This document shows positions 312 to 19,249 of a DNA stretch of 54,160 nt, one piece after another. The stretch's first letter is position 1. Every line of letters begins with the position of its first letter. Position numbers and translations under genes: made by a program. The stretch comes from Candidatus Gastranaerophilales bacterium (GTDB lineage: Bacteria; Cyanobacteriota; Vampirovibrionia; Gastranaerophilales; Gastranaerophilaceae). The stretch covers positions 1 to 54,160 of the forward strand of contig CALUVJ010000004.1 in NCBI GenBank assembly GCA_944324195.1, given 5' to 3'. The notes under the pieces were generated by a model, which was not told where the DNA came from, did no database searches, and was given only the letters and a program-made list of their open reading frames with translations.

Positions 312-340
312 TTCACAAGTATATAAAGATGTGATATAAT
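312..340 (+). promoter_or_regulatory. promoter of the giant FliD-like gene
   Basis: TTCACA (312-317), a 17-nt spacer, then TATAAT (335-340) with an extended TG at 332-333. Transcription is predicted to start near 347, giving a 5' leader of about 400 nt. Confidence 0.7.
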
Positions 341-358
341 TATTATTAAGATTGTATT

Positions 359-388
359 AACATAACATTTTGTATAAAATGTTATGTT
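359..388. repeat. 30-nt palindrome, copy 1
   Basis: The 13-nt arms AACATAACATTTT (359-371) and AAAATGTTATGTT (376-388) are perfect complements around GTAT. In RNA they would form a 13-bp hairpin at the very start of the leader. As DNA it could be a protein-binding site. Confidence 0.85.
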
Positions 389-499
389 ATATAAAATATA
401 ATAACAGTAAAGGTTTTAACCAAAACAATAATAAATTATTGAAATTTACAGTAAAAACAATAACGCCCAAAGGCAGCTGCCAAGCGCAAAACAATAAAA

Positions 500-529
500 A
501 ACATAACTTTTTATACAAAATGTTATGTT
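500..529. repeat. 30-nt palindrome, copy 2
   Basis: Second copy of the 359-388 palindrome in inverted orientation (the centre reads TATAC rather than GTATA), with a single arm mismatch (AACATAACTTTTT). Both copies are self-complementary, so they can also pair with each other across the 111 nt between them. Confidence 0.85.
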
Positions 530-530
530 G

Positions 531-567
531 CCTAATCGGCGAAAGCCGTGTGGCTAGTACAATTAGG
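531..567 (+). other. two-stem RNA element with GAAA tetraloop
   Basis: The closing stem CCTAAT (531-536)/ATTAGG (562-567) encloses a CGGC-GAAA-GCCG hairpin (537-548) and the single strand TGTGGCTAGTACA. AATCGGC (534-540) can alternatively pair with GCCGATT (638-644) inside the downstream terminator loop, so mutually exclusive folds are possible. Function unknown. Confidence 0.5.
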
Positions 568-617
568 AATATCTAAAAATGGAAACTCGAACAATAATAA
601 ATAATAATACTTGGAAT

Positions 618-662
618 AGGTATCGGAATTTTGCTTAGCCGATTTACCGGTACCTTTTTTTT
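618..662 (+). terminator. terminator-like hairpin inside the leader (possible attenuator)
   Basis: AGGTATCGG (618-626) pairs with CCGGTACCT (647-655) over nine base pairs with one G-U pair. The loop is 20 nt and is followed by T8 (655-662). It lies after the promoter and before the start codon at 755, so it would stop the giant gene's own transcript unless antagonised. Confidence 0.65.
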
Positions 663-754
663 ATTATTTGAGTGATTAACTGACATAAAACATAAATAAT
701 AAGGAATAAGACAACAGTAATTTACCCCTTTACAAGGACATACAGGTAGTAAAA

Positions 755-1090
755 ATGACCATTTCATTCAGCGGATTAGCATCAGGATTAGATACCTCAT
801 CATGGGTTGAGTCGCTTGTAGCATTGAAACAAGCGAAAGTTGATACGCTTGAAGAAGAGAAAGAAACTGTCTTACTTTCGCAGGAGACTTTAAGTAATAT
901 AAAATCATTTTTTAGTTCATTTAGAAGTGTTATAGAAAAAGTAACTGATGCAAAATATAGTATTCCGACGATGGATATTTTTGCTCAGAATTTAGCAAAT
1001 TCAAGTGATACCAGCGTATTAACGGCATCAGCCACTACAGAAGCGGAAGAATCTACGTATGAAGTTCTTGTGGACAAATTAGCTTCTAAT
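755..1090 (+). other. FliD_N domain of the giant protein
   Basis: Residues 1-~112: the LASGLDTSS motif and an amphipathic D0-type helix (VESLVALKQAKVDTLEEEKE), followed by the segment that leads into the first IN module. In known FliD this part forms the D0/D1 leg with the C-terminal domain. Confidence 0.85.
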
Positions 1091-4000
1091 ACACAGGCAT
1101 CAAGTAATTATACTTACATGACTACAATTGTACAAACAACAACCGCTACTCTCGATACCAAATTGATAAATTTAGGTGTTCAGACCGGTAAAATTGGGGT
1201 TAATGTCAACGGTATTGAACATGGAATTAATATTGGTGAAAGCGATACAATCGGAACTTTTATAGAAAAGATGAAAGAGATTGGTGTTGATGCAAGTTTT
1301 AATACTTCAACCGGCATTTTTTCCATTAATATTGATGCAAATGCGATAAATGATATTGACGGAACGGGAATTGTTGACGCATTTCACTTAGAGGGTGTTA
1401 ATGAGGGTTATGTAAGCAATGATTTAGCGATATCAAAAGTTGATACAATATATTCTGCCGCAACTGAAAACACTTTGTTGAGTGAGTTAGGCGTGAAGTC
1501 AGGGGAAATAGTTGTTGCTGCAAATGATACCAGTTATACAATATCAATTGATGAAAACAGTACGCTGGGCTCCTTTATACAGGATTTAACGGGAAATGGT
1601 ATTTTAGCGGAATTAGATGCTACCGGTGTATTTACAATTACTGATGCGGCGATTGTTGATGAAGGTACAACCTGTATTTTGGATGCATTAGGTTTGGATG
1701 TTGATATTTACGGCAAAATTCAAACAACGGGAAATTTAACTCATGTAACAGTAACAACAGAAGTTACTTCCGCAACATTGGACACTTTGTTGAAAGACCT
1801 TGGTGACGGAATAGAAATTACAGGCGGAGAGACAATAGTTGTAAAAGATAATGATAATAATGTTTCGACAATTACAATAGATACAACTGCGACATTAGGT
1901 GAATTATTTGATTCACTGGGCAAGGCCGGTATAACAGCATCATTAAGAGATGATGGGACTGTTGAGATTTCCGGAGGTGTTATAGAGGGTGGAACATTTG
2001 ATTTATCAGGCGAATTTGGACTAAAAGTAAATGCTTATAACGGTATGGTAACCGGTAATCCTTTGACAGAAACTATTACCGAAGTTACTCAGGCCGATTC
2101 CGGAACAAGATTAGTTGAGGATCTCGGCGTGCAAGCCGGCTATATAGAAATTGCAGATACAAATGGCAATATTCACTATGAAAAGATTTATGAAGGGCAG
2201 ACCATATCAAATTTTATAGCTGACTTGTCATCTTACGGGATAAAAGCATCTCTTGGAAGTGACGGCGTTTTAGAAATTGCCGGCGGCAGTTTTACGACTT
2301 TGACTGACGAGCAGGTTAATGATTTAGTAACTGCAGGTTCTATATTGGAAAGCAACACTGAGTATATAAAAGGTACTGATTTACTTACCAGATTATACGG
2401 AGCCCCTGTAATAAGCACAGATCAGATTACTGTTGTAAGTGTTTATGCCAAGACGCAGGCCTTGACATATTCATCCGTAAATACAGTAAACGCTTCTAAA
2501 ACAACAACATTGGCTTCACTTGGATTGACAACAGACGGAACGGTTGTTTTTACCATAGATAATAACGATACAAGAACTATAGATATTGATGGTACGATGA
2601 GTATTGAGGATTTGCTGACCTCATTGCAAAACTCAGGTATTACGGCATCCTGGAATAGTGAAAATTCAGGAATAACAATAGAGGATGCAGTTCTTACCGG
2701 CGGAACATCGGATTTAGCGGATGTATTAAATTTAACAACGACGGTTAATCAAAAATATGTCACATCGACGGCTTTATCAAAACAGGAAACCATCGTATCT
2801 TCTGCAACAGAAGATACATTGTTATCGGAATTCGGGATAACAAATACTATGTCTATAGAAGAGAGAACTGCAAGTATTTATGATAATAACGGTAATTTGG
2901 TAACGTCTGTAATTTTAACAGAGAATTTATCAGTTGGTGATTTGATAGACTATATTAACAGTTCAAATACAAATGCCAGTGCAAGCATTTCAAACGGGAT
3001 TTTTTCAATAGAAAACGGATATATTGAAAATTCAACTCTGGAAGCTGCTATGGGACTTGAAACATCAAGTAAATCAAGTTACGTACTTGGTTCGGTAATG
3101 ACAGTTACAACAGCTGCAACAATAATTGATGATACTACTTTAGGTGAAATTATAAGTATTTTGGGAACTCAAAATGCGGTTTCAAGCGGCTACTCTTTGC
3201 GATTTGATAACGAAGAATTAAATGTTTCATCATCAACAACGCTAGGTAATTTAATGCAGCAGATTCGTGATTTAGGCGGGACTGCAAGATTCGATTCTTC
3301 CGGCAGATTGGTAATCTCAGGCGGCACAGTTTCCGGAACAGTGGCATCAGCATTGGGAATTACTGTAAGAACTGCAACAACCGGTGTTACTGCAACCGGA
3401 GATGTGTTATATACCCAGGGAACTGTTTATGCTGATAGAAATTCAACTTTTGCAGATTTAGGTGTTAATAAAAATTTAACTTATATTGTTCACGACATAG
3501 ATGGTGCAACATTAAAAAAACTTACGATAAAAAGCTCTGATACTATCGGAGAATTTTTAGATACTTTAGAAGCAAATGATATTAGCGGAGAAATAGAAAA
3601 CGGGGTTATTTCTCTGGATTCTCTTGCCGGGAAATATATTACGGGAGAAGTTGCGGACTTTTTGGGTATTACATCTGCAACGACTACAAAAGTCGTTGAA
3701 ACAACCCAGAGTTCAACAGCATCAATTACTCATACAGAGACTATTATTGCTGATTTAACAACAAAACTCGGTGACATAAATGCTATAACTCAGGACGGGC
3801 AAAATATTTTAATATACAACAGTCGTCAGGAATGTATCGGCACTATTTCCGGGCTGACAACATCTTCAACAATAGGTGATATGTTTAATGCCTTAAGTGT
3901 ATATGATATAAGCGGTACAATTACTGACGGAATCATATCATTAACATCTCAAAGTAACAATTACGCATCCGGAGTTATAATGGATAACCTCGGAATAATC

Positions 4001-7000
4001 GTAACAGAAGGTTTGGCAACTACGGTTACTATCGGACAAACTGTAACATCAACCGCCCAAATTACCTGTACGACACTGGCAACTGCAACTGCAGGCTCCA
4101 CTCTGGGCGAATTAGGAATAAGTGATGCTTCACAAGGCTTTTTGGCTCCGGTTACGCAATTGACAGAAGCGGAGGCTAAGGCTCAGGGATATACTATAAT
4201 AAAAACCGCTCAACAATTACAAAGTATAAAATATGATCTCAGCGGTAAGTATATTCTTATGAGTGATATTGATTTAAGCGGTTTTAACTGGACAGCAATT
4301 GGAGATGCGACAAATAAGTTTTCCGGCGAATTGAACGGTAACGGATATGTAGTCAAAAATCTGGAAATAAATAAGACATCTTCTGACTATCAAGGGTTAT
4401 TCGGGTATATAGACAGAAATTCCGTAATTCAGAATATAGGTTTAGAAAATGTAAACGTAAAGGCAAAAAATTATGCAGGTGCCTTGGTTGGTTATAACTT
4501 CTACGGAACGATTTCAAATTCGTATACAACAGGAACTGTTACCGCACAGACAAGTTATGCCGGCGGTATTGCAGGTTATAATTTGGGCACAATAATAGAA
4601 TCCGCTTCCTCGGCAAATGTAAAGGCAGCATCTTACAGCGGCGGTATTACAGGAGCTAATTACGGGACAATATCAAATTCATACATTACGGGCAGAATCA
4701 ACGGTACAAACACTGTAGGCGGAATTGCAGGTGCTAATTTTAATTCAATAGTAGATTCTTTTTCATCAGGTATTATAAAAGGTACGGGGTCTGTAGGCGG
4801 AATTGCAGGTGAAAACTGGAGCTCAATATCAGATTCTCTGTCAATAAGTTCTGTTACAGGCAGTAATAATACCGGCGGTATGGTTGGTATTAATTACGAT
4901 ACCATATCAAATTCATATGCTGTTGGCAAAGTCAGCGGAACAAGTACATACGGAGGTTTTGCAGGAAATAATAGCGGCACTATAACAAATTCCGGATACA
5001 ACAAAGATATTACGGGAACATCGGCAGCTATAGGAACCGGCACTAATTCAGGTGTTGAGGATAAAACTATAGATGCAATCAGTTCATTATATAACAGCGG
5101 TTCTGTAGGGATGATTGATAATCAGATTCTCATTCGAAACGGAGATAATTCGCTGGATAGTATCTTTGTTAATTCCGATATGACAGTAAGAGAATTATTT
5201 GACGCTTTAGAAGGTTATGGAATAAGCGGTACGATAAGCGACGGGATAATCACCTTCAGTTCTTCAAACGGCGGTTATTTGGTTGGAGAAGTTGTATCGG
5301 CTTTGGGAATAGATTTGATTTCTTCAAATACCGTAGCGGTGACTACTACTTCTACAATGAAAGTTTCCTGTACAACAATAACAACTGCAACTTTAAGCAC
5401 GACATTAGATTATTTGGGTGTTCAGAGTGAAAGTGTTGCAGAGCTTTCAGGTCTTAAAGCCGGTGCGGATGGGTTTATAAAGTCTGTAGACAGATTAACG
5501 GAAGCGGAAGCGAGAGCTCAAGGTTATACTATCATAAAAACTGCAGCAGATTTAAAAAGTATATCTAATGACCTGGACGGGAAGTATATACTCATGAATG
5601 ATGTAGAATTAAGCGGTGTCGATTGGACTGCTATTTCTAACTTCGCGGGCGAATTAAACGGTAACGGCTATAGTATTAATAATTTAACAATAACAAAGAC
5701 TTCCACTAATTATCAAGGATTATTTGCTTCTACTGCTGCGGGGGCTGTGATTAAAAATTTAGGCTTAGAAAATGTAAATATAAAAGGTGACTCCTATACA
5801 GGCGCTTTGATTGGCAGTGTCAACGCTTCTGCTACTATTTCAAATGTATATGTAACAGGAAATATAGACGGTACCTCTTTTACAGGCGGCTTGATCGGTT
5901 ACGCATCTTCTATTACTATAGAAAATACTTATTCTTCTGTTGATGTTAACGCTAGATATAATTCTAATTCATATGCCGGCGGAATTATTGGCCGGGCATT
6001 GTATGCTACAATAAGCAACAGCTATACAACCGGAGATGTTACAGCAATAGGTTCTGTTGTAGGTGGTATTGCAGGTGAAATTTATTATTCAAAACTTTCG
6101 AATTCTTATGCTTTGGGTAATGTCTCCGGTAAGTCAAGCGTTGGCGGCCTGTTAGGCAGTGCTTATGCTACTACAAATATATCCAATACTTACGCTTCAG
6201 GTGAAGTAAATGGCAGCGCAAATAATGTCGGCGGTCTTATCGGGAGTTTAAGTAGTAATTCAAATCTTTCCAACAGCTATGCTTCCGGCGATGTGCGAGG
6301 TTCTGGATACGTTGGAGGCTTGGTTGGCAGTGCAAGCAGTGTCGTAAATATCTCAAATTCTCATTCAACTGGTTCTGTAAATGCAATTGCTAATAATACC
6401 GGCGGATTTGTAGGCTATGCTTATAATTCTGTTACAATTACCAATTCTTATGCTTCAGGAGATGTTACGGGTGCTTCATATACAGGAGGATTTGCGGGGT
6501 CAATACGAGACAGCGCAACTATATCCGATTCTTATGCAATCGGAAATGTTTCAGGCGCTCAATATACCGGCGGTTTCGTGGGATCAGCTAATAACACTGT
6601 TAATATTACTAATACTTATGCTGCGGGTGATGTTTCAGGAGGACAGTATACAGGCGGATTTATAGGATCCCTTTACTATTACGGGACAATAAAAAATTCA
6701 TATACTTCAGGCCATGTTGAATATATTGGCAATGAACAATATGGAGGAGCTTATGCGGGTTATGTAGCAAATAATTCTACAATAACCGGCGGGTACTATG
6801 ATAATACCGATTCCGGTATTACTAAATCTGTAGGTTCAATATATTCAACCCGTACTACTCCTGCTTCTGCAAGTGTTTCAGGTGTCAACACTTATGAAAC
6901 CAATAATAAAATTAATTCAATTGACGTAGATAATCTTGCCGTAAAAAACGGTACAAAAACAGTTGGAATAATACAGTTATCAAAAGATATGACTGTAGAG

Positions 7001-10000
7001 GACCTTTTGAGGGCGTTAGAGGAATATGATATTCAAGGCACTATTGAGGATGGTGTAATTTCTTTAACTTCAGACAGCGGCAATTATGTAATCGGAAATA
7101 TTGCTAATAAATTAGGTTTATATGCGGTAGTTGAAGGCGATTTGAACACTACAAACGGAATTTCATCTACATCTACTCTTGCGATTACAAAAACAGAAAT
7201 GGTTTATGCAACAGGCGGAACAAAATTGAGTGATTTAGGGTATGTTGACAGTGTAACCTATTATACTGCTTCTACAACGCCATCTGATTTTGTAGAAGAA
7301 GTAGCAAAAATATCAGAATCTCAGGCCAAAGAACTTGGATACACAGTTATAAAAACTGCTGACCAGCTTCAAAGCATGAGCGGTTCCGGCAAGTATATTT
7401 TAATGAATGATATCAACTTAAGCGGTTACGACTGGACAGCTATAACAGATTTTAGAGGCGAATTGAACGGTAACGGCTATGTTATAAATAATTTGACCAT
7501 AACCACTACTGCTAATCAGCAAGGACTTTTTGCTACAACTAGAGACGGAGCGGTGATTAAAAATCTGGGGTTGGAAAATGTGAACGTTACAGGCGGTAAT
7601 TACACCGGAGCTTTAATCGGGTATGGAACCGAGTATACGCAAATATCTAATGTTTATGTTAAAGGAAGTGTTAACGGCAGTAACTATACCGGTGGTATAG
7701 TTGGTATGGCAAGCTCAATAAGAGTTTCTTCCTCATATGCATCAGCGGATATATCCGGCAATCAATATGTAGGCGGTATTGTAGGGTGTGACAATAGTGA
7801 TTATGCATATATTAGTAACAGCTTTGTTCAAGGCCGCATAAGCAGTGCATCCAATTATGCAGGCGGTATTATAGGGTTGGTTGGAAGAGGTTCAATATCA
7901 ACATCTTATAGTGCCGCGGAAGTTATATCTAACGGTGATTATACCGGGGGTATAACCGGATACGCCGGAGTTTCTGTGTCTATATCACAAACCTATGTAA
8001 CGGGTAATGTTACAGGACGAAATTATACAGGCGGTATAGCAGGTGATATGAGCTATGAAGCTGATATAACACAAAGTTATGTAACCGGCAATGTTAGCGG
8101 TAACAGTTACGTAGGCGGTATAGCGGGAAATATGCACGGCGATACGTATACCTACACAAGCTCTTGGGATAATACAGAGCAAACCGGCTATAACTTTGCT
8201 GTAATAGGAGATATTTACGTTACGGGTAATGTAACTGGTGTACAATATGTTGGAGGATTGGCCGGATACTCCAGAATTGCCAAAATTACAAACGGTGATT
8301 TCTCCGGAAATTTGAGCGGTACTACTTGTGTAGGGGGTATAATAGGCTATTCTAGGGACTATACATCTTTGACTAATGATGTATTTCTGGGTAAAGTTAC
8401 CGGTGATAGGTATACCGGAGGTATTGCAGGAGAGGCTGATGAGACGTATTTCTATAGTGTTGTTTCGTCAGGCACGGTTATTGGCGGGGAAAAAGCAACA
8501 ACAGGCGGTTTGGTAGGGTATTATGATACAGACGGAAGCTGGAGCAATTCTTATGCATTATCATATGTAAATGATGGCGGTGCCCTTGCAGGCACTATAA
8601 GGTATGATTCTACAGTAACAGGAACATATGATCCTGATGCTGTTAATGTTACATCAACAAGGGGTGCATCAACGGGAACTTGCAGAGCAACAAAAACAAC
8701 TACCGATAAAATAGTAGAAGCTCTAAATGACGGAACCATTTATTCTCCTGAGGATACTATAATTATCAGAAACGGTGCATATACTACAGGATTAATCCGA
8801 ATTAATCAGGATATGACTCTTGATGAATTATGCGGCGAGTTGGAAAAATACGGTATAAAAGTTGAATTAAAAAACGGAGAGTTGACATTTATTTCTCCTG
8901 AAAACACTTATATAGCCGGCTCCTATGCGGCAAAACTCGGTATAACCACAAGTATTTCCGGCGATTCCGGTACTGTCGGAATAGCATCTTCTTCCACATT
9001 AGAAGTTACTTACACTGAATACGCTGCGGCTAACGTAAATACTACACTTAAATCTCTGGGAGCAAAAGATTATACAGGGTTTATGGCGGATTATGAATAT
9101 ATTTCAGAGGAACAAGCCAAGAAAATGGGCTATGTAATAGTCAAAACTGCCGATGATTTGAAAAATATTAAGAATAATTTAGATGCCAGATATATATTGA
9201 TGAATGATATAGACCTTGATGGTGTTAATTGGGAAGTTATAAATAATTTCACAGGAGAACTAAACGGTAACGGTTATGTTATTAAAAACTTAACTATTAA
9301 CAACTCTACAAAAGATAATCAAGGCTTATTCGGAACAATAGACGGCGCATTAATACAAAATATAGGTTTGCAAAACGTAAATGTTACCGGAAGAACAAAT
9401 GTAGGCGGTCTGGTAGGATTGAATGACGGAACGATATCAAATGCTTATGTTATCGGAAGTATAAACGGCACTGATTACGTTGGCGGCATAGTAGGTTCTA
9501 ATTCGGGCAAAATTAACAATGTTTATTCTGCCGGTTCGGTAAATGCCGACAATATGTATGCAGGCGGTATATCCGGTTCTAACTTTGATACTATAACTAC
9601 TGCTTTTTCTGCCGCAACTATTGAAGGTGAAGGTGTAATAGGCGGTATTTCGGGTGATAACTGGGGGTTAATTTCTAAAGCCTATTTCAGTAACAGTTTA
9701 ACCGGCAGCTCTACAGTCGGTGCTCTGGTCGGTGATAACAGAAACGGAAGAATACAATACGCACGATATGATTCTGACCTTGCCGGAGATATTTCAGGCG
9801 TAAGTCTCGGAAGTTCTTCCGGGATTACGGCTCTAAATACAACCCAGGTGAATGAGCTTATTAATGACGGGACAATGGCTCTGCCTGCAAACTATTTAAT
9901 AATTAAAAACGGTTCTGATTATGTAGACAGTTTCATAGTAGACCCTAATATGAGTATAAATGAATTATTTGCAAAACTTGCAGAGTATGATATTACCGGT

Positions 10001-13000
10001 ACTATGGAAAATAGTATTATTTCATTAAATTCTGAAAGCGGAAATTATATTGCAGGTGATATTGCGGGATTGCTCGGTGTTGATGCAATAACTGTCGGAA
10101 CTATCGGAATTTTATCAACCTCTACTATAAAAGTTTCAAATGCGGGTGTTATTTCTTACGCAACGGAAAGTACAACACTTGGAGAACTCGGATATACTAA
10201 TCAAAATTCTTCTAATCAGGCCGCAAGTGCAGGAGCATCCGGATTTATAGAAGATGTAGTACAAATATCTGAGACAGACGCGATAAGTCAAGGATATACG
10301 ATAATAAAAACCGCTAATGATTTGAAAAACATTAGTAGTAATGTTTCCGGTAAATATATCTTAATGAATGATATAGATTTATCCGGTGTATCTTGGAGTG
10401 CGATTACTAACTTCAGCGGCGAGTTAAACGGTAATGGTTACAGTATTAAAAATCTTACCCTCAGCAGCAGTGGTACTTATTATTTAGGACTTTTCGGATA
10501 TACAAGTTCCGGAGCGGTAATTAAGAATTTGGGCTTGGAAGATGTAAATGTTTCCGGTTACAGAGGGGTAGGGGCTCTGGTTGGCAGTGTCAGCAGTACT
10601 ACTACAATATCAAATGTGTATATGACAGGCACGGTACAAGGCAGCAATACAAATGTAGGCGGTCTGGTCGGATATTCAAATTATTTAACTATAGAAAACA
10701 GTTATGCTGCCGGTGATGTAATAGGCGTGAGTTCTACAGGTGGTCTTATTGGCGATGCAATAAGAACAACGATTAGAAATAGTTATACAAGCGGAGATGT
10801 TACAAGTTCAAACAGCTATGTCGGCGGTATTGCAGGTTCTGCCGACGTGGTCAGTATTTCAGGTACATATGCTACCGGAAATATATCAGGTTACGATAGA
10901 GTAGGCGGCTTGGTTGGTAGTACTCGTAGTATTACTATTACTGATAGCTTTACTACGGGTAATATAGACGGCAGGAATTATATTGGTGGTTTGACAGGCT
11001 ATTCAGATAGAACATTGAATGTATCTAATACGTATGCAATAGGTAATGTATCAGGAAGTACATCTGTAGGCGGTTTAGTCGGTTTTGTATATAATGGATC
11101 TTATTATACAATTTCAAATTCATTCACTAATGCAAATAATGTTACAGGTTCTATATCTAATAGTAGTACCAGTACTTTATATTCGAACGTGTATTACAAT
11201 CCGTCTAACAAAGTTTCTGCGTCTGCGGAAACTAATACGGCTGCTATTGCTGCAACATCTGATGAAATCCGTGAAATGTTTATAACCGCAAATAACAGGC
11301 CGTCTTTTGATTTAATCCTGTCTGGCGGCGGTGCAAATTCATATGATTTTATAGACTTAGATTCATCAACAACAATCGGAGAAATCTTCCAAATATTATC
11401 TGATTACGGATTTACGGGCAGTATTACCAATGGTGTTATAACACTGGAATCTGCTGATAATAATGTTATTCAAGGTGATATTTTAGATATACTTGATTTA
11501 AATACAGTGGTAGTTAACACTACAGAGGGCATTAGCGCAACATCATCTTCTGCGGTAACCGTAAATAACACTGTTACTTCCGGCGCGACTTTGGCTTCAT
11601 TGGGTGTTGCCGCAAGCAATACTTCTGCATTTCAAGTTAGTATAGATAATGAATCTGCTTCAGGGTTTATAGAAGGAGTTACAAGATTATCTGAATCAGA
11701 AGCTGCAAGTCAGGGATATACAATAATAAAGACTGCCGACGAATTGCAGGCAATTAAAAATAATTTAAGCGGTAAATATATTTTAATGAATAACATAAAC
11801 CTGAATGGTTACGACTGGGTTGCTATTGCGAATTTTAAAGGTGAATTGAATGGCAACGGATATACTATAAATAATTTAAAAATTGATTCAGAAAGCCATT
11901 TTCAAGGACTTTTTGCATCAACCCAAGCAGGAGTAAAAATTACAAATTTAGGCTTAGAAAATATTAACGTAAAGGGTGGTTCATCCGTAGGTGCTTTAAT
12001 TGGAAGTGTGGTCGGTTCTGCAACTGTATCCAATGTATACGCTAACGGTAAGGTCGAAGGCTCCTCTTATGTGGGTGGACTCATTGGAGAGGCCTATTAT
12101 GCAACGCTTACTGTCAGCAGTACAAACGCAGATGTTGATGTAACGGCAACGAGCTCATACGTAGGCGGACTTATAGGTTATGCTAATGGCAGGATAACAA
12201 TTAAAGACAGCTATACCACAGGAGATGTTATAGGTTATGGTGATATAGGTGGTTTATTGGGTTCCGGACGTTCTGTAATGGTAACCAATACTTATGCAAC
12301 AGGAAATATTCAAAGTATTGGCAGTAGTGACGTAGGCGGGTTAATAGGAAATCTTGATAATGGCACAGTAAAAAACAGCTATACTACAGGTAACATAACT
12401 GCAAGGAGTAGCAGCTATGTGGGCGGACTGATTGGGAATACATCTGGTAAGGTGAGCCTGGCTTATGTGTATTCTACCGGTGATGTATACGGTAATCAAT
12501 ATGTAGGCGGGCTGCTGGGACGAAATTGTGGCACTATAGATAATTCATATACTTCTGCTGACATATTTGCTTCAAGTTACTATGAGGCTATTTCATATAG
12601 CGGCACTGTCAGAAGTTCCTTAACAACCGGAACGGTTAATAATGTTGAAACTATCAGGTACTACAATTCTTATGGTTCAATTGGGACTATAGCAGACACT
12701 GCCACTTTAGTTAACGGTTTAAATGACGGAACTTATAGTTTGATGAGCAACAATTTGCTTATCATGAATAAAAATGATGTTGTAGGCAGTATAAAAATTG
12801 GCTCAAATACAACTATTGCACAATTAATGAATGAGCTCGCAAAATATGATATTGACGTAACACTGGAAGATGGGTATCTTTCTTTTGATTCTCCGGAGGG
12901 TAATTATATTGCAGGCTCTGCAGCTGCGCAATTGGGTATAAGCGTATCATCAGTAAACGACTTTAATCATATAGGAAACACTGATTCCAAACGGCTTGAA

Positions 13001-16000
13001 ACAAGCGGTACTTCAAATGCAAACGAAAATACCGCATTAAAAGATTTTGGCATTGTCAATGATAATTATGTAACTGTTATTCAAAATGGTACAGAGAAGG
13101 TAATTACGTTAAATTCTGAAAATACTATCGGTGACCTTATCTCTGCATTAGAACAGGCAGGCGTAACCGCATCAATTTCGGGCGGTAAGCTGACTGTTAC
13201 CGGAAATGAAAATTCTTACATAAAAGGTATTTCTAAAGATTTAGAAAATGCTTTGAAAATCTACAGCGGAAATGGTTATACTTATGAAAGCGAGTATAGT
13301 AATTCGTACACATCTAGAAACGTTATAACTTCAGGTCTTGATGCGGATTCAAGATTCGGCAATATAGGTATGGCGGCGGATAATTATATTACCGTTGTCC
13401 AAAATAATACAGAAAAAGTTGTAACTATCATGACAAGCAATACAGTTAATGATATGATTGCGGCCTTAAAAGATTTAGGTATTAATGTTTTATACGAAAA
13501 TGGTGAACTTACATTTGAAGGAAGTAAATATTCCTATATAAGCGGTATGACCGATGAATTAAAGAGTATACTTAATATGCAAGTCGGTAATGGTTATACT
13601 TATACCGCTGATTCAAATTATATTAACAAAATCTCTGATAAACTTGAATTTACGGGTACATTTACTCTAAGCGAAACTTCAACATTATCCGGTCTCGGAA
13701 TTTCTGATGAAACCGTAATGGAAATATCTCAAAATGGTGTCAGCCAATCTGTTACATTTAAACCAAATGCAACTATCGGAAATGTAATCAGTGAATTGAG
13801 CAAGTATGGCATAAGCGCTTATGTACAAGATGGTTTATTGACCATTGAAAGTGTCGGAAGTAATTACGTACTAAGTGTATCTCCTGATTTTGCCAAAGCA
13901 TTAAATATAAAAGTCGGCTCCGGAAATTCTTATACGAACGGAACAAGTTTTGTAAATACCATGAACACGCAGTATATTGATTCTTCTTACACAACAACAG
14001 TAAATCAAACTGCCACATTCTATTCTCTCGGAATGGAAAGCAATAACTACATAACAGTAATATCGAACAATACACAATACGTTTTAACAGTTAAGCAGAG
14101 TACTACAGTGGATGAAATGTTATCCGGTTTACGTCAATTAGGACTTAGTACTTCTATTACAAACGGTATAATTAAAATTAACGGAAATGAAAATTCTTAC
14201 ATTAAAGGTATGACAGATGAACTTCAGAATATATTGAAGATGAGGTCCGGTAATAATTATACCTATATAACAGGCGAAAGTTTCTTAAATACGGATTCTA
14301 AAACCCAAAACAAACAGGATATTACGACTATAAATACAAGAACCAGTTTGAGCAGCATAGGTTTGAGCAGTGATGGTTATTTCACCCTTATTTCCGATGG
14401 TGTGCAAACTGTTGTTACCATAAAAACTGATGATACCGTTTCAAATATGATTTCTAAACTGAAAGATGCAGGTATTTTTGCATCACTTCAAGACGGCAAA
14501 CTGGTTCTTGAAGGTACCGGAACAACTTATGTAAAAGGTATTTCTCAAAATATAAAAGATATTCTGAATCTACAGGCCGGTGATGATATAACTTATAAAG
14601 ACGGAAGTTTCACAATTAATTCTAATTCGGAATTGCAGGGTGATATAAGTACAATGACCGTAACTACTATTAATACGGAGTCCTCTTTTGCTGATATTAA
14701 TGTAAAAGGCGATAATTATATCACTGTTGTTTCAAACGGAAGTGAACATGTTATTACTGTATTCCCTGAATATACTATTCGAGATATGATTTCCGAACTT
14801 AATCAGTTTGGCATAACTGCTTCCGTAAATAACGGTATTTTGACCTTTGAAGCTTCAAATAATGCATATATTAAAGATATTTCCCGCGAATTAAAAACAG
14901 CTCTGAAATTAAAAGCCGGTGAAAATAATTCCTGGATAACAGATGGTGAAAAGACCTGGGTAAACAGTGATTCAGATTATCAAGACTATGAACTTTCAAA
15001 CTTGAAAGTTAGCGGGGATACTGTTTTGTCTGCAATAGACGGTTACAATAACGGCAACGGAAGATTACTTGCACATCTGTCGAATGGCAAGTTTGCAACT
15101 ATAACTATTGACTCAACTAAAACTCTGGATGAATTTTTTGACCAAATTTCAGAATACGGGCTTGTCGGTAATATAGATTCTGATGGGAAAGTTACCATTG
15201 AGGGAATTGGTAATACTTACCTGCAGGCGGTATCCGGAGGTTCTAATATTTTGACGGCATTAAATTTAGGCAATGTTGTTGAAAATGTTCAGACTGTTAC
15301 CGTTAATACGACTTCCAAAGCGTTCTCTTATGTCTCAGAGGTTGCCGCTACTGAAAATTCAATTCTGGAAAATATTTCTAACAATGCCGGCCAGTCATTA
15401 GGTGAAAGTGACGGAACAATAGTTCTTACGACTACATCTGAGGACAGCAGTCAGAGAATAACTTTAACATTTAGTAAAACCCAATCTCTTAACGATGTCA
15501 TAACCAAATTAAGAGAATATGGAGTTAATGCTTCAATTGATTCTGACGGCGTATTCTCAATCAGCACAAATTCTCTGAAAGATTTTGATATTTCCGGCAA
15601 TCTCGGTAATCTTCTGATGGGTTCTTACAGTAAAGATTATGAGGTCGGAACTACAAATACTTCAAGTGTTTTGACAGAAACAACATCAAAACCTATGGAT
15701 AATTCATCATTGTTATCAGAGTTTGGTGTTACAGGCGGGAATATTCTTATTACACAAATGGGAGTTGATTATACCGTAAATATTAATACAACAGAAATTC
15801 AAACTGTTTCTGATTTTACAAATCTGCTTATGGAATATGGTTTTTACTCCGGTATAGATTCAAAGGGCAGATTGGCAATATCAGCAATAGGAAAAAGCCA
15901 CTTATCTTCAATTGCCGGCGGTTCAAATATCCTGGAAATATTCGGGCTTGAAGATTGGACTCTTAACAATACGACTCAGACAAGTAATAATCTTACAACT

Positions 16001-19000
16001 TATGAAACTGTACTTGCCGGAACTACTATGAATACAAAGCTAAAAGATTTATTGGATTCAGAAGGTAATAAGCTTGATATAACAAGCGGCAGCATATATG
16101 TAAATCAACAGGGACAAAATCATCTAATCAGTATTGATGCTGAAGATACTTTATATACTCTGGCTAATAAATTAAATCAGTATGGAGTAAAATTAGAGTT
16201 AACATATGACGGGAAATTAAATCTTTCATCAGAAGGCGACGGTTTCTTAACAACGGAAGGTCTTGATTCGGGCATTGCCTCTAATATTTTGGAAAAACTA
16301 AATATTTCAGGGAATTGGCATACAAGCCAAACTTCAACCAGTGATACGTTAACATATGTAGAAGATGTTGACAGGACAATTACCGCTCAAACAAAATTAA
16401 GCGACTTACAGGATGCTTCAGGTAATAATTTGGGAATTACAAGCGGTACATTCTATGTCTACAGTAACGGTATCAGATATACCGAAACAATAACCGAAGA
16501 TATGACAGTCGGAGACTTCCAGGATTTAATGTCAAAGTATAGAATTGTAAGCAGTATTTCTCAAAACGGTTCAATATCTTTGAGTGCATATAATAACACT
16601 TATCTGGCAGAATCAGAATTTGCTGACGGAAATTCTAATATTGTCTCAAAATTGTTTACAGACTGGGATTTCTCAAATATTTATACGTCTAATAAACTTG
16701 AAGTATCAAAAGATATTGTTAAATCTGTTACTGAGGAAACAAAACTATCTGATATAAATGAAGGAACGTATCAAGCAGGCACGATAACCGTTGTAAAAGA
16801 TGGTGTAGAAACAGATATTCTGTTGGATGCCGACGATACAGTAGGTGATTTGTTTGAAAAATTATCATCTTACGGATTTGATTGTTCTGTAACATCAAAC
16901 GGGCAGATAGTTATAAGTAATGATGAAAATTATACAATCAAAGACTCTTCAGGTTCAAATATCTTTGATATTGCCGGTATAGACAGCAGCAGTTGGAATC
17001 AGGATAATTCTTATGTAACCGGTGATTTGAGTTCTGTTAAAATATCAACATTGGATGCTGCAGCTACAAAAGATACTTTGTTATCTCTCTTAGGTGTTTC
17101 TACCGGAGAATATTACATTTATAATAACGGAGTAAGATATACGGCATTTATTTCTTCTGACGAAACTATCGGTTCTTTGCTGGATACCTTAAAGTCATTT
17201 GGTCTGGAAACAAGTTTTGTACAGACTGATACAGGCTCTGCTTTAAAAATATTAGGCAATGGAAATTCTTATATAGCAAAATCTAACAGTGTTACTGATG
17301 CGTCAAATATTGTAGAAAAATTATTTACGGATAAAGTAAATACAAAATATGAATACTCCGGCCTGGTACAGACTTCAGAAGTCAAAACAGCTCTTGTAAG
17401 TGCAACAGAGGAAACTTTACTAAGTGATTTTGATTTAAACTGGGGCGATAGTATCTTAACTGCAGCCGGTCGTTTGTCAATTGACATTAACGGTGTAGAA
17501 AGTGTTATAGAAATCTCCTCCGACGAAACTTTCGGTTCACTTATAAATAAATTACAAGCACTTGGTGTTGACGCTTCTATAAGTAATGGTGTATTCAAAA
17601 TCCAAAGCGGTTTTGATACCATAACAATAAATCCGGATGAAACAACGTCAAACATTCTTGTAACTCTCGGCTTAGCTTATAAAGATGATTTAGGCGGGTA
17701 TTTAACCAGTGACAGAACTCTGGAAGCTACTACAACAACAGTAGAAGAAAAAACTTTGTCAGTTGCAAATTATGCGGGTATGGACACAAACTTGGAATCT
17801 CTGAATATTTCAGACGGTTCTTTGAGCATATACAGGAACGGACAAAAAGCTATAATTCAAATAAATTCCGATGAAACATTTGGCGAGCTGAGAGCAAGAT
17901 TAGCATCTGCTTATTCTGATTTGGATTTAGAATTTAAAGACGGCTATTTACGCATATATTCAAAAGAAAAAGACGTACAATTGGAAATCGGTTCAACAAC
18001 CGATACAACAAATTTACTTGCTATTACCGGCTTAGCTAAAAATGAAGATGGCGATATATTAAGTGCAAGAGAATTGTATTCCGTAAACACAGATTCAATT
18101 ATAACAGAATCCGGTTTATTCAGATTCGGCGATGTAACAGAAGGTACTTTTGTAATAGGTAATGCTACTTTTACAATAACAGACAAAACTACTATTTCTG
18201 ATTTGATATCACAAATCAATTCAAATGAAGAATCTAATGCAACGGCATACTGGGATAATATTCAAGGCAAATTTGTTATTAAATCAAGATCAACCGGTGC
18301 TGCCTATATTAATATAGAAGCCGGCACAAGTAATTTTACTGATATATTAGGTTTTACAAGTTCTGAATGGGATAGTACTGACGGAAGCCTTGATGTAACG
18401 CGCATGAATATTTCATCTCAGGAAGTAGGCTCAAATGCAAGATTTTCTATAAACGGAACGGCTTATACTTCTGCTTCTAATACTGTAACAAGTGATGTAT
18501 CAAGAATTAAAGGGTTAACTATAAATCTTAATGGCTTGACTGAAGGTTCTGCCGTTACTTTAACAGTTGAGCGTGATAAAGAAACTTTGGCAAGTGCGAT
18601 TTCTGATGTAGTCGATTCCTATAACGAATTAATGAAAAATGTAGACGAAGCAATTTCATCAGAAGGAGAGCTTCATGGAGAGACTACGTTAAAATTGCTC
18701 AGGAATCAGTTAAGATCATATATGACGAGTTCAGATCTCGGTGCAACCGTATTTAAAAATTTAAGCGCAATAGGAATATCCGTAAGCGATGCAAGTGCAA
18801 ATAATATTTCTACAACAACAGAAAGTATTATAAATCTGACTTTTGATAAAGAAGCTTTTCTTGATGCGTATGATGCTGATGAGGATGCAGTTAAGGCTTT
18901 ATTGATAGGAAGCAGCAATAATACGGGTATATTTACGAAGGTGGAAAACCTGCTGGAATCAAGTTTGCAATCCGTCGGCGGATACTTTGCATCTGCAGAA

Positions 19001-19156
19001 AGTTCATATAAACGTGAAATTTCACGTATCGATACTAAAATTGTAAATGCAACAAAAGATATTGAAAGATATAGGGAACGTTTGGAAAATAAATTTGCGT
19101 CAATGGATTTATTGATTGCAAATATGCAGCAGCAATACAGTTCATTTTTGGTATAG
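755..19156 (+). CDS. giant FliD-like flagellar cap/adhesin (6133 aa)
   Basis: The ends are those of the flagellar filament cap FliD (HAP2). The N-terminus ISFSGLASGLDTSSWVESLV is a canonical FliD_N start, and the last ~245 residues (SINGTAY ... VERDKETLASAISDVVDSYN ... coiled-coil tail ending ANMQQQYSSFLV) are FliD_C. FliD is normally about 450-700 aa; this is about ten times longer, roughly 0.63 MDa by estimate. Residues ~125-1120 are about nine hook-IN-like modules. Residues ~1122-3980 alternate six GLUG-type beta-helix blocks with IN-like linkers. Residues ~4080-5880 are about sixteen more IN-like modules. There is no Sec signal peptide, as expected for flagellar type III export. ATG at 755 has only a weak AGG eight bases upstream. 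No other flagellar gene is adjacent. I infer a filament-tip adhesin; the FliD ends are seen directly, the adhesion role is inference. Confidence 0.9.
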   Translation: MTISFSGLASGLDTSSWVESLVALKQAKVDTLEEEKETVLLSQETLSNIKSFFSSFRSVIEKVTDAKYSIPTMDIFAQNLANSSDTSVLTASATTEAEESTYEVLVDKLASNTQASSNYTYMTTIVQTTTATLDTKLINLGVQTGKIGVNVNGIEHGINIGESDTIGTFIEKMKEIGVDASFNTSTGIFSINIDANAINDIDGTGIVDAFHLEGVNEGYVSNDLAISKVDTIYSAATENTLLSELGVKSGEIVVAANDTSYTISIDENSTLGSFIQDLTGNGILAELDATGVFTITDAAIVDEGTTCILDALGLDVDIYGKIQTTGNLTHVTVTTEVTSATLDTLLKDLGDGIEITGGETIVVKDNDNNVSTITIDTTATLGELFDSLGKAGITASLRDDGTVEISGGVIEGGTFDLSGEFGLKVNAYNGMVTGNPLTETITEVTQADSGTRLVEDLGVQAGYIEIADTNGNIHYEKIYEGQTISNFIADLSSYGIKASLGSDGVLEIAGGSFTTLTDEQVNDLVTAGSILESNTEYIKGTDLLTRLYGAPVISTDQITVVSVYAKTQALTYSSVNTVNASKTTTLASLGLTTDGTVVFTIDNNDTRTIDIDGTMSIEDLLTSLQNSGITASWNSENSGITIEDAVLTGGTSDLADVLNLTTTVNQKYVTSTALSKQETIVSSATEDTLLSEFGITNTMSIEERTASIYDNNGNLVTSVILTENLSVGDLIDYINSSNTNASASISNGIFSIENGYIENSTLEAAMGLETSSKSSYVLGSVMTVTTAATIIDDTTLGEIISILGTQNAVSSGYSLRFDNEELNVSSSTTLGNLMQQIRDLGGTARFDSSGRLVISGGTVSGTVASALGITVRTATTGVTATGDVLYTQGTVYADRNSTFADLGVNKNLTYIVHDIDGATLKKLTIKSSDTIGEFLDTLEANDISGEIENGVISLDSLAGKYITGEVADFLGITSATTTKVVETTQSSTASITHTETIIADLTTKLGDINAITQDGQNILIYNSRQECIGTISGLTTSSTIGDMFNALSVYDISGTITDGIISLTSQSNNYASGVIMDNLGIIVTEGLATTVTIGQTVTSTAQITCTTLATATAGSTLGELGISDASQGFLAPVTQLTEAEAKAQGYTIIKTAQQLQSIKYDLSGKYILMSDIDLSGFNWTAIGDATNKFSGELNGNGYVVKNLEINKTSSDYQGLFGYIDRNSVIQNIGLENVNVKAKNYAGALVGYNFYGTISNSYTTGTVTAQTSYAGGIAGYNLGTIIESASSANVKAASYSGGITGANYGTISNSYITGRINGTNTVGGIAGANFNSIVDSFSSGIIKGTGSVGGIAGENWSSISDSLSISSVTGSNNTGGMVGINYDTISNSYAVGKVSGTSTYGGFAGNNSGTITNSGYNKDITGTSAAIGTGTNSGVEDKTIDAISSLYNSGSVGMIDNQILIRNGDNSLDSIFVNSDMTVRELFDALEGYGISGTISDGIITFSSSNGGYLVGEVVSALGIDLISSNTVAVTTTSTMKVSCTTITTATLSTTLDYLGVQSESVAELSGLKAGADGFIKSVDRLTEAEARAQGYTIIKTAADLKSISNDLDGKYILMNDVELSGVDWTAISNFAGELNGNGYSINNLTITKTSTNYQGLFASTAAGAVIKNLGLENVNIKGDSYTGALIGSVNASATISNVYVTGNIDGTSFTGGLIGYASSITIENTYSSVDVNARYNSNSYAGGIIGRALYATISNSYTTGDVTAIGSVVGGIAGEIYYSKLSNSYALGNVSGKSSVGGLLGSAYATTNISNTYASGEVNGSANNVGGLIGSLSSNSNLSNSYASGDVRGSGYVGGLVGSASSVVNISNSHSTGSVNAIANNTGGFVGYAYNSVTITNSYASGDVTGASYTGGFAGSIRDSATISDSYAIGNVSGAQYTGGFVGSANNTVNITNTYAAGDVSGGQYTGGFIGSLYYYGTIKNSYTSGHVEYIGNEQYGGAYAGYVANNSTITGGYYDNTDSGITKSVGSIYSTRTTPASASVSGVNTYETNNKINSIDVDNLAVKNGTKTVGIIQLSKDMTVEDLLRALEEYDIQGTIEDGVISLTSDSGNYVIGNIANKLGLYAVVEGDLNTTNGISSTSTLAITKTEMVYATGGTKLSDLGYVDSVTYYTASTTPSDFVEEVAKISESQAKELGYTVIKTADQLQSMSGSGKYILMNDINLSGYDWTAITDFRGELNGNGYVINNLTITTTANQQGLFATTRDGAVIKNLGLENVNVTGGNYTGALIGYGTEYTQISNVYVKGSVNGSNYTGGIVGMASSIRVSSSYASADISGNQYVGGIVGCDNSDYAYISNSFVQGRISSASNYAGGIIGLVGRGSISTSYSAAEVISNGDYTGGITGYAGVSVSISQTYVTGNVTGRNYTGGIAGDMSYEADITQSYVTGNVSGNSYVGGIAGNMHGDTYTYTSSWDNTEQTGYNFAVIGDIYVTGNVTGVQYVGGLAGYSRIAKITNGDFSGNLSGTTCVGGIIGYSRDYTSLTNDVFLGKVTGDRYTGGIAGEADETYFYSVVSSGTVIGGEKATTGGLVGYYDTDGSWSNSYALSYVNDGGALAGTIRYDSTVTGTYDPDAVNVTSTRGASTGTCRATKTTTDKIVEALNDGTIYSPEDTIIIRNGAYTTGLIRINQDMTLDELCGELEKYGIKVELKNGELTFISPENTYIAGSYAAKLGITTSISGDSGTVGIASSSTLEVTYTEYAAANVNTTLKSLGAKDYTGFMADYEYISEEQAKKMGYVIVKTADDLKNIKNNLDARYILMNDIDLDGVNWEVINNFTGELNGNGYVIKNLTINNSTKDNQGLFGTIDGALIQNIGLQNVNVTGRTNVGGLVGLNDGTISNAYVIGSINGTDYVGGIVGSNSGKINNVYSAGSVNADNMYAGGISGSNFDTITTAFSAATIEGEGVIGGISGDNWGLISKAYFSNSLTGSSTVGALVGDNRNGRIQYARYDSDLAGDISGVSLGSSSGITALNTTQVNELINDGTMALPANYLIIKNGSDYVDSFIVDPNMSINELFAKLAEYDITGTMENSIISLNSESGNYIAGDIAGLLGVDAITVGTIGILSTSTIKVSNAGVISYATESTTLGELGYTNQNSSNQAASAGASGFIEDVVQISETDAISQGYTIIKTANDLKNISSNVSGKYILMNDIDLSGVSWSAITNFSGELNGNGYSIKNLTLSSSGTYYLGLFGYTSSGAVIKNLGLEDVNVSGYRGVGALVGSVSSTTTISNVYMTGTVQGSNTNVGGLVGYSNYLTIENSYAAGDVIGVSSTGGLIGDAIRTTIRNSYTSGDVTSSNSYVGGIAGSADVVSISGTYATGNISGYDRVGGLVGSTRSITITDSFTTGNIDGRNYIGGLTGYSDRTLNVSNTYAIGNVSGSTSVGGLVGFVYNGSYYTISNSFTNANNVTGSISNSSTSTLYSNVYYNPSNKVSASAETNTAAIAATSDEIREMFITANNRPSFDLILSGGGANSYDFIDLDSSTTIGEIFQILSDYGFTGSITNGVITLESADNNVIQGDILDILDLNTVVVNTTEGISATSSSAVTVNNTVTSGATLASLGVAASNTSAFQVSIDNESASGFIEGVTRLSESEAASQGYTIIKTADELQAIKNNLSGKYILMNNINLNGYDWVAIANFKGELNGNGYTINNLKIDSESHFQGLFASTQAGVKITNLGLENINVKGGSSVGALIGSVVGSATVSNVYANGKVEGSSYVGGLIGEAYYATLTVSSTNADVDVTATSSYVGGLIGYANGRITIKDSYTTGDVIGYGDIGGLLGSGRSVMVTNTYATGNIQSIGSSDVGGLIGNLDNGTVKNSYTTGNITARSSSYVGGLIGNTSGKVSLAYVYSTGDVYGNQYVGGLLGRNCGTIDNSYTSADIFASSYYEAISYSGTVRSSLTTGTVNNVETIRYYNSYGSIGTIADTATLVNGLNDGTYSLMSNNLLIMNKNDVVGSIKIGSNTTIAQLMNELAKYDIDVTLEDGYLSFDSPEGNYIAGSAAAQLGISVSSVNDFNHIGNTDSKRLETSGTSNANENTALKDFGIVNDNYVTVIQNGTEKVITLNSENTIGDLISALEQAGVTASISGGKLTVTGNENSYIKGISKDLENALKIYSGNGYTYESEYSNSYTSRNVITSGLDADSRFGNIGMAADNYITVVQNNTEKVVTIMTSNTVNDMIAALKDLGINVLYENGELTFEGSKYSYISGMTDELKSILNMQVGNGYTYTADSNYINKISDKLEFTGTFTLSETSTLSGLGISDETVMEISQNGVSQSVTFKPNATIGNVISELSKYGISAYVQDGLLTIESVGSNYVLSVSPDFAKALNIKVGSGNSYTNGTSFVNTMNTQYIDSSYTTTVNQTATFYSLGMESNNYITVISNNTQYVLTVKQSTTVDEMLSGLRQLGLSTSITNGIIKINGNENSYIKGMTDELQNILKMRSGNNYTYITGESFLNTDSKTQNKQDITTINTRTSLSSIGLSSDGYFTLISDGVQTVVTIKTDDTVSNMISKLKDAGIFASLQDGKLVLEGTGTTYVKGISQNIKDILNLQAGDDITYKDGSFTINSNSELQGDISTMTVTTINTESSFADINVKGDNYITVVSNGSEHVITVFPEYTIRDMISELNQFGITASVNNGILTFEASNNAYIKDISRELKTALKLKAGENNSWITDGEKTWVNSDSDYQDYELSNLKVSGDTVLSAIDGYNNGNGRLLAHLSNGKFATITIDSTKTLDEFFDQISEYGLVGNIDSDGKVTIEGIGNTYLQAVSGGSNILTALNLGNVVENVQTVTVNTTSKAFSYVSEVAATENSILENISNNAGQSLGESDGTIVLTTTSEDSSQRITLTFSKTQSLNDVITKLREYGVNASIDSDGVFSISTNSLKDFDISGNLGNLLMGSYSKDYEVGTTNTSSVLTETTSKPMDNSSLLSEFGVTGGNILITQMGVDYTVNINTTEIQTVSDFTNLLMEYGFYSGIDSKGRLAISAIGKSHLSSIAGGSNILEIFGLEDWTLNNTTQTSNNLTTYETVLAGTTMNTKLKDLLDSEGNKLDITSGSIYVNQQGQNHLISIDAEDTLYTLANKLNQYGVKLELTYDGKLNLSSEGDGFLTTEGLDSGIASNILEKLNISGNWHTSQTSTSDTLTYVEDVDRTITAQTKLSDLQDASGNNLGITSGTFYVYSNGIRYTETITEDMTVGDFQDLMSKYRIVSSISQNGSISLSAYNNTYLAESEFADGNSNIVSKLFTDWDFSNIYTSNKLEVSKDIVKSVTEETKLSDINEGTYQAGTITVVKDGVETDILLDADDTVGDLFEKLSSYGFDCSVTSNGQIVISNDENYTIKDSSGSNIFDIAGIDSSSWNQDNSYVTGDLSSVKISTLDAAATKDTLLSLLGVSTGEYYIYNNGVRYTAFISSDETIGSLLDTLKSFGLETSFVQTDTGSALKILGNGNSYIAKSNSVTDASNIVEKLFTDKVNTKYEYSGLVQTSEVKTALVSATEETLLSDFDLNWGDSILTAAGRLSIDINGVESVIEISSDETFGSLINKLQALGVDASISNGVFKIQSGFDTITINPDETTSNILVTLGLAYKDDLGGYLTSDRTLEATTTTVEEKTLSVANYAGMDTNLESLNISDGSLSIYRNGQKAIIQINSDETFGELRARLASAYSDLDLEFKDGYLRIYSKEKDVQLEIGSTTDTTNLLAITGLAKNEDGDILSARELYSVNTDSIITESGLFRFGDVTEGTFVIGNATFTITDKTTISDLISQINSNEESNATAYWDNIQGKFVIKSRSTGAAYINIEAGTSNFTDILGFTSSEWDSTDGSLDVTRMNISSQEVGSNARFSINGTAYTSASNTVTSDVSRIKGLTINLNGLTEGSAVTLTVERDKETLASAISDVVDSYNELMKNVDEAISSEGELHGETTLKLLRNQLRSYMTSSDLGATVFKNLSAIGISVSDASANNISTTTESIINLTFDKEAFLDAYDADEDAVKALLIGSSNNTGIFTKVENLLESSLQSVGGYFASAESSYKREISRIDTKIVNATKDIERYRERLENKFASMDLLIANMQQQYSSFLV
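1140..4080 (+). repeat. hook-IN-like module array 1 (about nine units)
   Basis: Units of about 100-120 residues with the pattern ATxxTxLxxLG ... strand ... TIGxFIxxLxxxGIxASxxxxGxFxI. They match the Flagellin hook IN motif found in ones and twos in normal FliD and flagellins. The units are divergent in sequence, so the expansion looks old. Confidence 0.65.
4120..5040 (+). repeat. GLUG block 1
   Basis: Opens with LTEAEAKAQGYTIIKTAQQL, then YILMSDIDLSG and GELNGNGY (around 4325). About seven GLUG-like turns of the type GGIAGxNxGTISNSYxTG follow. This is typical of right-handed beta-helix GLUG proteins. Confidence 0.8.
5464..6840 (+). repeat. GLUG block 2
   Basis: Starts with LTEAEARAQGYTIIKTAADL, then YILMNDVELSG and GELNGNGY (around 5650), then many GGLIG/GGFVG turns with NSYASGDV-type strands. 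One of the longest blocks. Confidence 0.8.
7285..8640 (+). repeat. GLUG block 3
   Basis: Same preamble (ISESQAKELGYTVIKTADQL, YILMNDINLSG, GELNGNGY around 7457) and about a dozen GGIVG/GGIAG turns. One turn carries a longer insertion rich in Thr and Tyr near 8150-8190. Confidence 0.8.
9070..9810 (+). repeat. GLUG block 4
   Basis: Same preamble (ISEEQAKKMGYVIVKTADDL, YILMNDIDLDG, GELNGNGY around 9256). The shortest block, with about six turns. Confidence 0.8.
10230..11215 (+). repeat. GLUG block 5
   Basis: Same preamble (ISETDAISQGYTIIKTANDL, YILMNDIDLSG, GELNGNGY around 10420) followed by GLVG/GLIG turns. Confidence 0.8.
11655..12700 (+). repeat. GLUG block 6
   Basis: Same preamble (LSESEAASQGYTIIKTADEL, YILMNNINLNG, GELNGNGY around 11840) followed by GGLIG/GGLLG turns. 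Last block before the tandem IN-like modules. Confidence 0.8.
13010..15000 (+). repeat. tandem NYITVV-type IN modules (six units)
   Basis: Six units of about 105-110 residues share DNYITVVxN, a VTI strand, TVxDMIxxLxxxGI, a second strand, then SYIKGMTDELxxILxMxxGN. They are more alike than the other IN-like modules, suggesting recent tandem duplication. Confidence 0.7.
15000..18400 (+). repeat. hook-IN-like module array 2 (about ten divergent units)
   Basis: Divergent units with a SGxxYVxxxGxxxxxxI strand, a TxxxLxxxLxxYGxxxSI helix-strand and SNIxxxLxL tails. They bridge the NYITVV units to the FliD_C domain. Confidence 0.6.
18420..19156 (+). other. FliD_C domain of the giant protein
   Basis: The last ~245 residues contain ARFSINGTAYTSASNTV, the KGLTINLNGLTEGSAVTLTV segment, a SDVVDSYNELMKNVDEAIS helix and a heptad-like C-terminal helix (DIERYRERLENKFASMDLL). 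The last helix is the polymerisation/D0 element of FliD. Its integrity argues against a decayed gene. Confidence 0.88.
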
Positions 19157-19216: not shown

Positions 19217-19249
19217 AAGGTGTGATTGATTAATAAAGAGGTAAGATAT

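Follow-up and report, generated by a model that had tools for sequence, protein, structure and literature searches.

The 54,160-nucleotide stretch of DNA analysed here (contig CALUVJ010000004.1 of a Candidatus Gastranaerophilales genome, referred to as the window) carries a gene for a giant FliD, which at the sequence level is shown to be a tenfold enlarged second copy of the flagellar filament cap protein. Our analysis shows this protein to be an ancient, vertically inherited FliD paralogue with its cap-forming ends (the D0/D1 coils and part of D2) kept intact, and its outer D2/D3 part was likely expanded by serial tandem duplication of the first outer module of ordinary FliD, up to 31 modules. 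Regarding its function, we favor, with a probability of roughly 0.6, an export-competent alternative or mixed filament cap bearing at its tip an appendage of megadalton size that is probably adhesive; both the capping and the adhesive role are inferred here, in the absence of data on the protein, its filament or its binding. The cap is commonly regarded as a small, constrained assembly chaperone, and conserved caps ten times larger raise the question of how much enlargement the flagellar type III channel and cap assembly can accommodate.

The gene occupies 18.4 kb as a single intact frame running from an ATG at 755 to a stop codon at 19154-19156 (Table 1), and the encoded protein, which begins MTISFSGLASGLDTSSW, has a calculated net charge of about -344 at pI 4.2. 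Membership in FliD was taken to require FliD_N followed by FliD_C in one frame, both over their Pfam cut-offs, and this was met, with residues 10-112 reaching 54 bits for FliD_N (cut-off 24.8) and residues 5892-6126 reaching 125 bits for FliD_C (cut-off 25.4). The Flagellin_N/C termini that would mark a giant flagellin are not those of this ORF, whose termini are FliD. A model of the C-terminal 704 residues, built on a 31-row alignment (mean pLDDT 71, whole-model pTM 0.39), displayed discrete alpha/beta modules plus a helical D1/D0 region; its Foldseek matches with E <=0.001 were exclusively FliD chains, and a second structure comparison with E. coli FliD (5h5v) gave a Z of 13.8. The D1/D2 FliD fold expected of a family member is present in this prediction, within the confidence that such a pTM allows. 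Because the outer head domain of P. aeruginosa FliD is likewise inserted, as a loop that follows the first two inner-head strands (PMC5072837), the module array of the giant occupies the proper place of the outer domain.

An iterated profile of the repeat identified 31 IN-like modules of ~80 aa each, spaced mostly 105-110 aa apart and the weakest still at an E of about 1e-12, and the core reads IN1-9, G, IN10, G, IN11, G, IN12, G, IN13, G, IN14, G, IN15-31, where G stands for a GLUG block. The term IN-like is a loose label: Flagellin_IN (PF07196) membership was not met, with three of 22 modules touched and a single listed score of 19.1 bits against a cut-off of 22.7, and nearly all modules show clear homology to the first module of the genome's own ordinary FliD. 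Apart from the last two modules, which are the counterparts of ordinary modules 1 and 2, the module 1 profile matches 28 of the 29 remaining modules with E <0.005 and outscores module 2, the match of IN13 being marginal. Since nearly all array modules score best with ordinary module 1, we infer serial growth from it, which makes module 1 the probable source of an array placed between FliD_N and the ancestral module pair.

Between the FliD ends, the Pfam families Glug and Peptidase_M26_N, the latter of which we take to be itself a GLUG-type beta-helix family, score far above cut-off, and our own GLUG profile counted 42 repeats in six blocks. Such blocks, read as parallel beta-helices, belong to a type that is widespread among surface proteins. 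In a model of residues 3500-4290, GLUG block 6 forms a beta-solenoid with a core pLDDT mostly >90, nearest to the beta-helix of IgA1 protease (2.4 A over 264 residues, Z as listed in Table 1) and followed by alginate epimerases, lyases, phage tailspikes and the adhesin PfbA. With a profile over cut-off and a predicted beta-helix fold, membership in the GLUG beta-helices (PF07581 / PF05342) is met. An enzymatic reading as an M26 (IgA1) peptidase was rejected, as the catalytic M26 C-terminal domain was not found, Pfam at E 0.1 reporting no M26 peptidase domain in any third of the protein.

These results bear on an earlier note, made on the same DNA without database searches, which had described a 6133-residue ORF with intact FliD parts at both termini around a giant repeat core of about thirty IN-like modules and six GLUG beta-helix blocks. 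Its coordinates, length and single frame were exact, both ends are matched by the Pfam profiles, the six blocks held by Pfam Glug and our own profile, with a predicted beta-helix fold for block 6, and the module number held at 31, the name being loose by Pfam as described above; none of the outcomes it had named as refuting its claim came about. Long reads had been proposed there as a check of the single frame, which is instead supported by homologues in relatives.

Table 1 Features of the giant fliD gene and its leader, in window positions.
Feature	Position	Strand	Evidence or remarks
Likely promoter, TTCACA-17-TATAAT, TG before second hexamer	312..340	+	consensus match only; conserved in L045
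Two 30-bp palindromes, near reverse complements of each other	359-388, 500-529 (span 359..529)	+	
Leader hairpin then T-run, possible attenuator	619..654	+	
Giant FliD ORF	755..19156	+	6133 aa, 643.5 kDa, pI 4.2, 10 Cys
FliD_N (D0/D1 N-terminal part and first D2 strands)	782..1090	+	Pfam PF02465
IN-like modules 1-9	1157..4006	+	iterated module profile
GLUG block 1, 7 repeats	4478..5026	+	Pfam Glug and own profile
IN-like module 10	5084..5320	+	iterated module profile
GLUG block 2, 11 repeats	5801..6733	+	Pfam and own profile
IN-like module 11	6896..7129	+	iterated module profile
GLUG block 3, 9 repeats	7607..8572	+	Pfam and own profile
IN-like module 12	8708..8953	+	iterated module profile
GLUG block 4, 2 repeats found	9404..9559	+	own profile
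IN-like module 13	9845..10090	+	iterated module profile
GLUG block 5, 6 repeats	10571..11068	+	Pfam and own profile
IN-like module 14	11291..11509	+	iterated module profile
GLUG block 6, 7 repeats	11990..12583	+	own profile; predicted beta-helix, IgA1-protease beta-helix Z 29.5
IN-like modules 15-29	12704..17683	+	iterated module profile and profiles of ordinary FliD modules
IN module 30, counterpart of ordinary FliD module 1	17786..18034	+	68 bits to canonical module 1
IN module 31, counterpart of ordinary FliD module 2	18110..18364	+	118 bits to canonical module 2
FliD_C (remaining D2, D1, D0 C-terminal part)	18428..19132	+	Pfam PF07195; FliD structures 5h5v, 9m6h, 9gnz

The intact frame is confirmed by relatives carrying homologous giant frames. 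The closest homologue, L045 (CALUSN010000158.1, from a Candidatus Gastranaerophilales MAG of another species), encodes 6131 aa in a module and block order identical to that of the window gene and stems from an independent assembly. Across 6098 aligned codons the two share 69% protein identity (94% in FliD_N, 88% in the C-terminal end and 55-79% in the core) at a pS of 0.70, i.e., with synonymous sites saturated. The dN/dS was about 0.11 overall, 0.035 in FliD_N, 0.053 in FliD_C and 0.04-0.25 in the GLUG blocks, and lay at about 0.04-0.25 across all regions; these ratios are rough because dS is saturated. That an 18-kb frame has stayed open up to synonymous saturation argues strongly for translation and selection of the gene, and we infer, albeit from sequence alone, that the window frame is very likely real and under selection. 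None of the DNA repeats of >=100 bp inside the ORF surpasses 75% identity, the maximum being about 74%, which makes short-read collapse unlikely.

In a tree of the FliD_C region, all 37 giants tested formed one clade (100/98) beside the canonical copies, with the giants of the genera g70, g79 and g1 branching off as successive subclades and the ordinary copies from these genera falling outside it. The giants nest within the FliD of the same bacterial family, which is the phylogenetic criterion for a FliD origin, and their monophyly with sorted genera points to one duplication before the genera split, followed by growth. Horizontal arrival or repeated origin is not needed to account for this pattern.

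The source genome holds four FliD_C loci, namely an ordinary FliD of 578 aa, the window giant and two more giants cut by contig ends. As separate observations on the latter, one (L006) contains a 1392-bp internal duplication (928-2319 and 2770-4161, 99.3% identical), reflecting either a recent block duplication or an assembly effect, and the third giant of the genome (L007) is split at 7414-7784 into two same-strand frames by a frameshift, an assembly error or decay. Sampling 35 genomes of this Candidatus Gastranaerophilales genus turned up a FliD frame of >=1000 aa in 29, and giants were also found in the genera g70 (2408-3187 aa) and g79 (2946, 6018 and 6603 aa); elsewhere in the class there were none, the listed FliD frames there measuring about 220-690 aa apart from a single 736-aa frame. 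In many giants a single frame holds both FliD ends, and the number of modules ranges from 8 to 36. GLUG or other beta-helix inserts are found in some and missing from others, many being purely or nearly IN modules (L051, L057, L058, L062 and L063 among them), one other giant has a weak Pectate_lyase_5-like insert by Pfam, and some inserts of L047 and L055 have no Pfam match. Ordinary FliD co-occurs with giants in nearly all genomes, and some of the giant-bearing MAGs are labelled rumen, yak colon or horse faeces. In at least two species, two giant fliD genes lie in tandem on one contig (L064; G005:C12 with L047 and L162).

The genome also meets the requirements for a flagellated one, i.e., flagellin, hook and export gate, with eight Flagellin_N loci, seven Flg_bbr_C loci and FlhA. 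Among the checks that the earlier note had proposed, flagellin and hook genes elsewhere were accordingly found, and the search of related genomes for the same architecture succeeded in three genera. The note had reported a single giant and knew of no described FliD of this size; the former extends to a second gene beside ordinary FliD and one of at least three giants in the genome. As to the latter, we found no paper on a FliD of this size in the open-access literature searched, but a 6603-aa relative exceeds the window gene, whose uniqueness is rejected.

In the reading we favor, the giant FliD would be exported unfolded via the flagellar type III channel and would form a cap at the filament tip, either by itself or together with ordinary subunits, both steps being inferred from family knowledge; its oligomerisation at the tip and its insertion of flagellin are likewise inferred. 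Once outside, the modules may fold as discrete beads into an out-and-back string tens of nm long per subunit, and a pentamer of giants only would amount to about 3.2 MDa; the earlier note had estimated several megadaltons at the tip for five or six copies. The beta-helix blocks would most likely bind glycans (mucin, plant fibre) or other cells, which is the least certain step, and the appendage would then serve the tip for adhesion or sensing in the herbivore gut; the adhesion or host-contact role, put forward as an inference from the outset, remains one. Points for this reading are the intact cap ends, purifying selection, the ordinary FliD alongside, and the presence of flagellins and FlhA. 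FliD-mucus binding has been reported in C. difficile and P. aeruginosa and is debated, a direct FliD-mucin interaction not having been shown for P. aeruginosa according to the same review (PMC4009794). Against it stand the locus, which lies outside any flagellar operon, and a promoter of sigma-70-like appearance. Furthermore, capping may not depend on the giant because ordinary FliD is nearly always present, five giant subunits might possibly hinder flagellin insertion, and adhesion is not the sole option because beta-helices occur in enzymes too.

Among the rival explanations, it remains possible that the giant is a flagellar-export adhesin and not a cap, with the FliD ends serving as export signal and anchor and the protein being released from the tip, held at the hook-filament junction or displayed on the surface. 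The retention of ordinary FliD, by which capping does not require the giant, and the variable module number would fit this view, yet the strong conservation covers the D1/D2 cap-forming parts and the C-terminal coil and thus extends beyond an export signal alone. A tip spacer or shield without specific ligand, in which module number sets the length and the array protects the cap or couples the filament tip mechanically to mucus, appears unlikely: the many giants with (nearly) IN modules only indicate that GLUG blocks are dispensable, and the acidic pI and strong negative charge are also in its favor, but beta-helix inserts, of the GLUG type or another, are seen repeatedly among the giants and are under purifying selection. 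An assembly or annotation artefact or a decaying pseudogene might be suspected from the metagenomic source, from the two frames of L007 and from L055, which is broken around unread bases. For the window gene this is all but excluded and, as far as sequence allows, refuted by the single frame without near-identical repeats, by the same-layout homologue in an independent assembly at synonymous saturation, and by the intact giants of many other species.

Going beyond the favored cap reading, a bolder joint reading, which the balance of evidence leaves slightly on the doubtful side, holds that the flagellar tips of some gut Melainabacteria are megadalton modular adhesive fibres, so that the flagellum would be both propeller and giant tip adhesin, and that a dedicated second FliD family has an outer domain turned into an array of duplicating cassettes (8-36 modules), into which beta-helix binding blocks are taken up.

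Compared with known FliD / HAP2 caps (PF02465, PF07195; PDB 5h5v, 9gnz, 6sih), the giant has homologous N- and C-terminal cap parts in the same order, and its last two outer modules resemble those of the genome's own ordinary FliD, whereas its 6133 aa contrast with 468 aa in E. coli and 578 aa in the same genome. The difference lies in 29 extra outer modules and six beta-helix blocks after FliD_N, in a second gene besides the normal one. The nearest precedent are the giant flagellins (Thomson et al. 2018, PMC6248924), likewise axial proteins with an outer part enlarged by internal domain duplication and novel inserts under vertical inheritance; however, giant flagellins build the filament itself, exceed 1000 aa and, in the case studied, have two tandem repeats, while the giant FliD is a cap protein with 31 repeats, remarkable for its size, clear duplication history and maintained family. 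The GLUG blocks are similar in sequence (Peptidase_M26_N) and predicted fold to the N-terminal GLUG beta-helix of IgA1 protease M26 (PDB 7uvk, 3n6z), but are embedded in a cap protein without a reported M26 peptidase domain. Adhesins of the Pectate_lyase_5 and PfbA types share beta-helix surface modules with giant FliDs, but use other export routes and are anchored in the cell envelope, not at the flagellar tip. The giant FliD is a clear case of a domain array that grew out of a native module, and it points to a possible attachment mechanism for poorly known gut bacteria: an old giant family persists in herbivore-gut Melainabacteria, whose flagellar tips may bear a megadalton sticky appendage. 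That FliD acts as an adhesin at the tip has long been argued from small FliDs; giants, in which such a role could hardly be missed, offer a direct test.

Upstream of giant fliD, a 24-30 bp palindrome occurs in several species (L045, L056, L063, L086, L088 and L091), with pairs, where present, 141-165 bp apart. Elsewhere in the source genome it was found at C7:41227-41297 and C39:2-25, a search with the reversed control pattern giving no site, and a role as operator, RNA switch or recombination site is in each case possible. An invertible segment between the palindromes is unsupported, the intervening sequence not being conserved beyond shuffles in either orientation. The leader RNA (window 350-700) matches no Rfam family and no known riboswitch; it folds far better than shuffles (z -6.9), and the hairpin with T-run shows changes on both arms in L045 and L063. 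Control of giant fliD by attenuation is conceivable, again on sequence evidence only. Downstream, window 19226-19960 encodes a protein of 244 aa that lacks a Pfam match and whose N-terminus resembles a signal peptide. Lastly, the source genome (G000) has three FHIPEP (FlhA-type) genes on contigs C64 (L175), C38 (L176) and C108 (L177), comprising the flagellar one, a second with a 702-aa frame adjoining FliH, and a distant C-terminal one adjoining a pyrimidine phosphorylase gene. Genes of the second type are present across the whole family, even where a genus lacks FliD, which suggests a conserved non-flagellar type III-like export gate.
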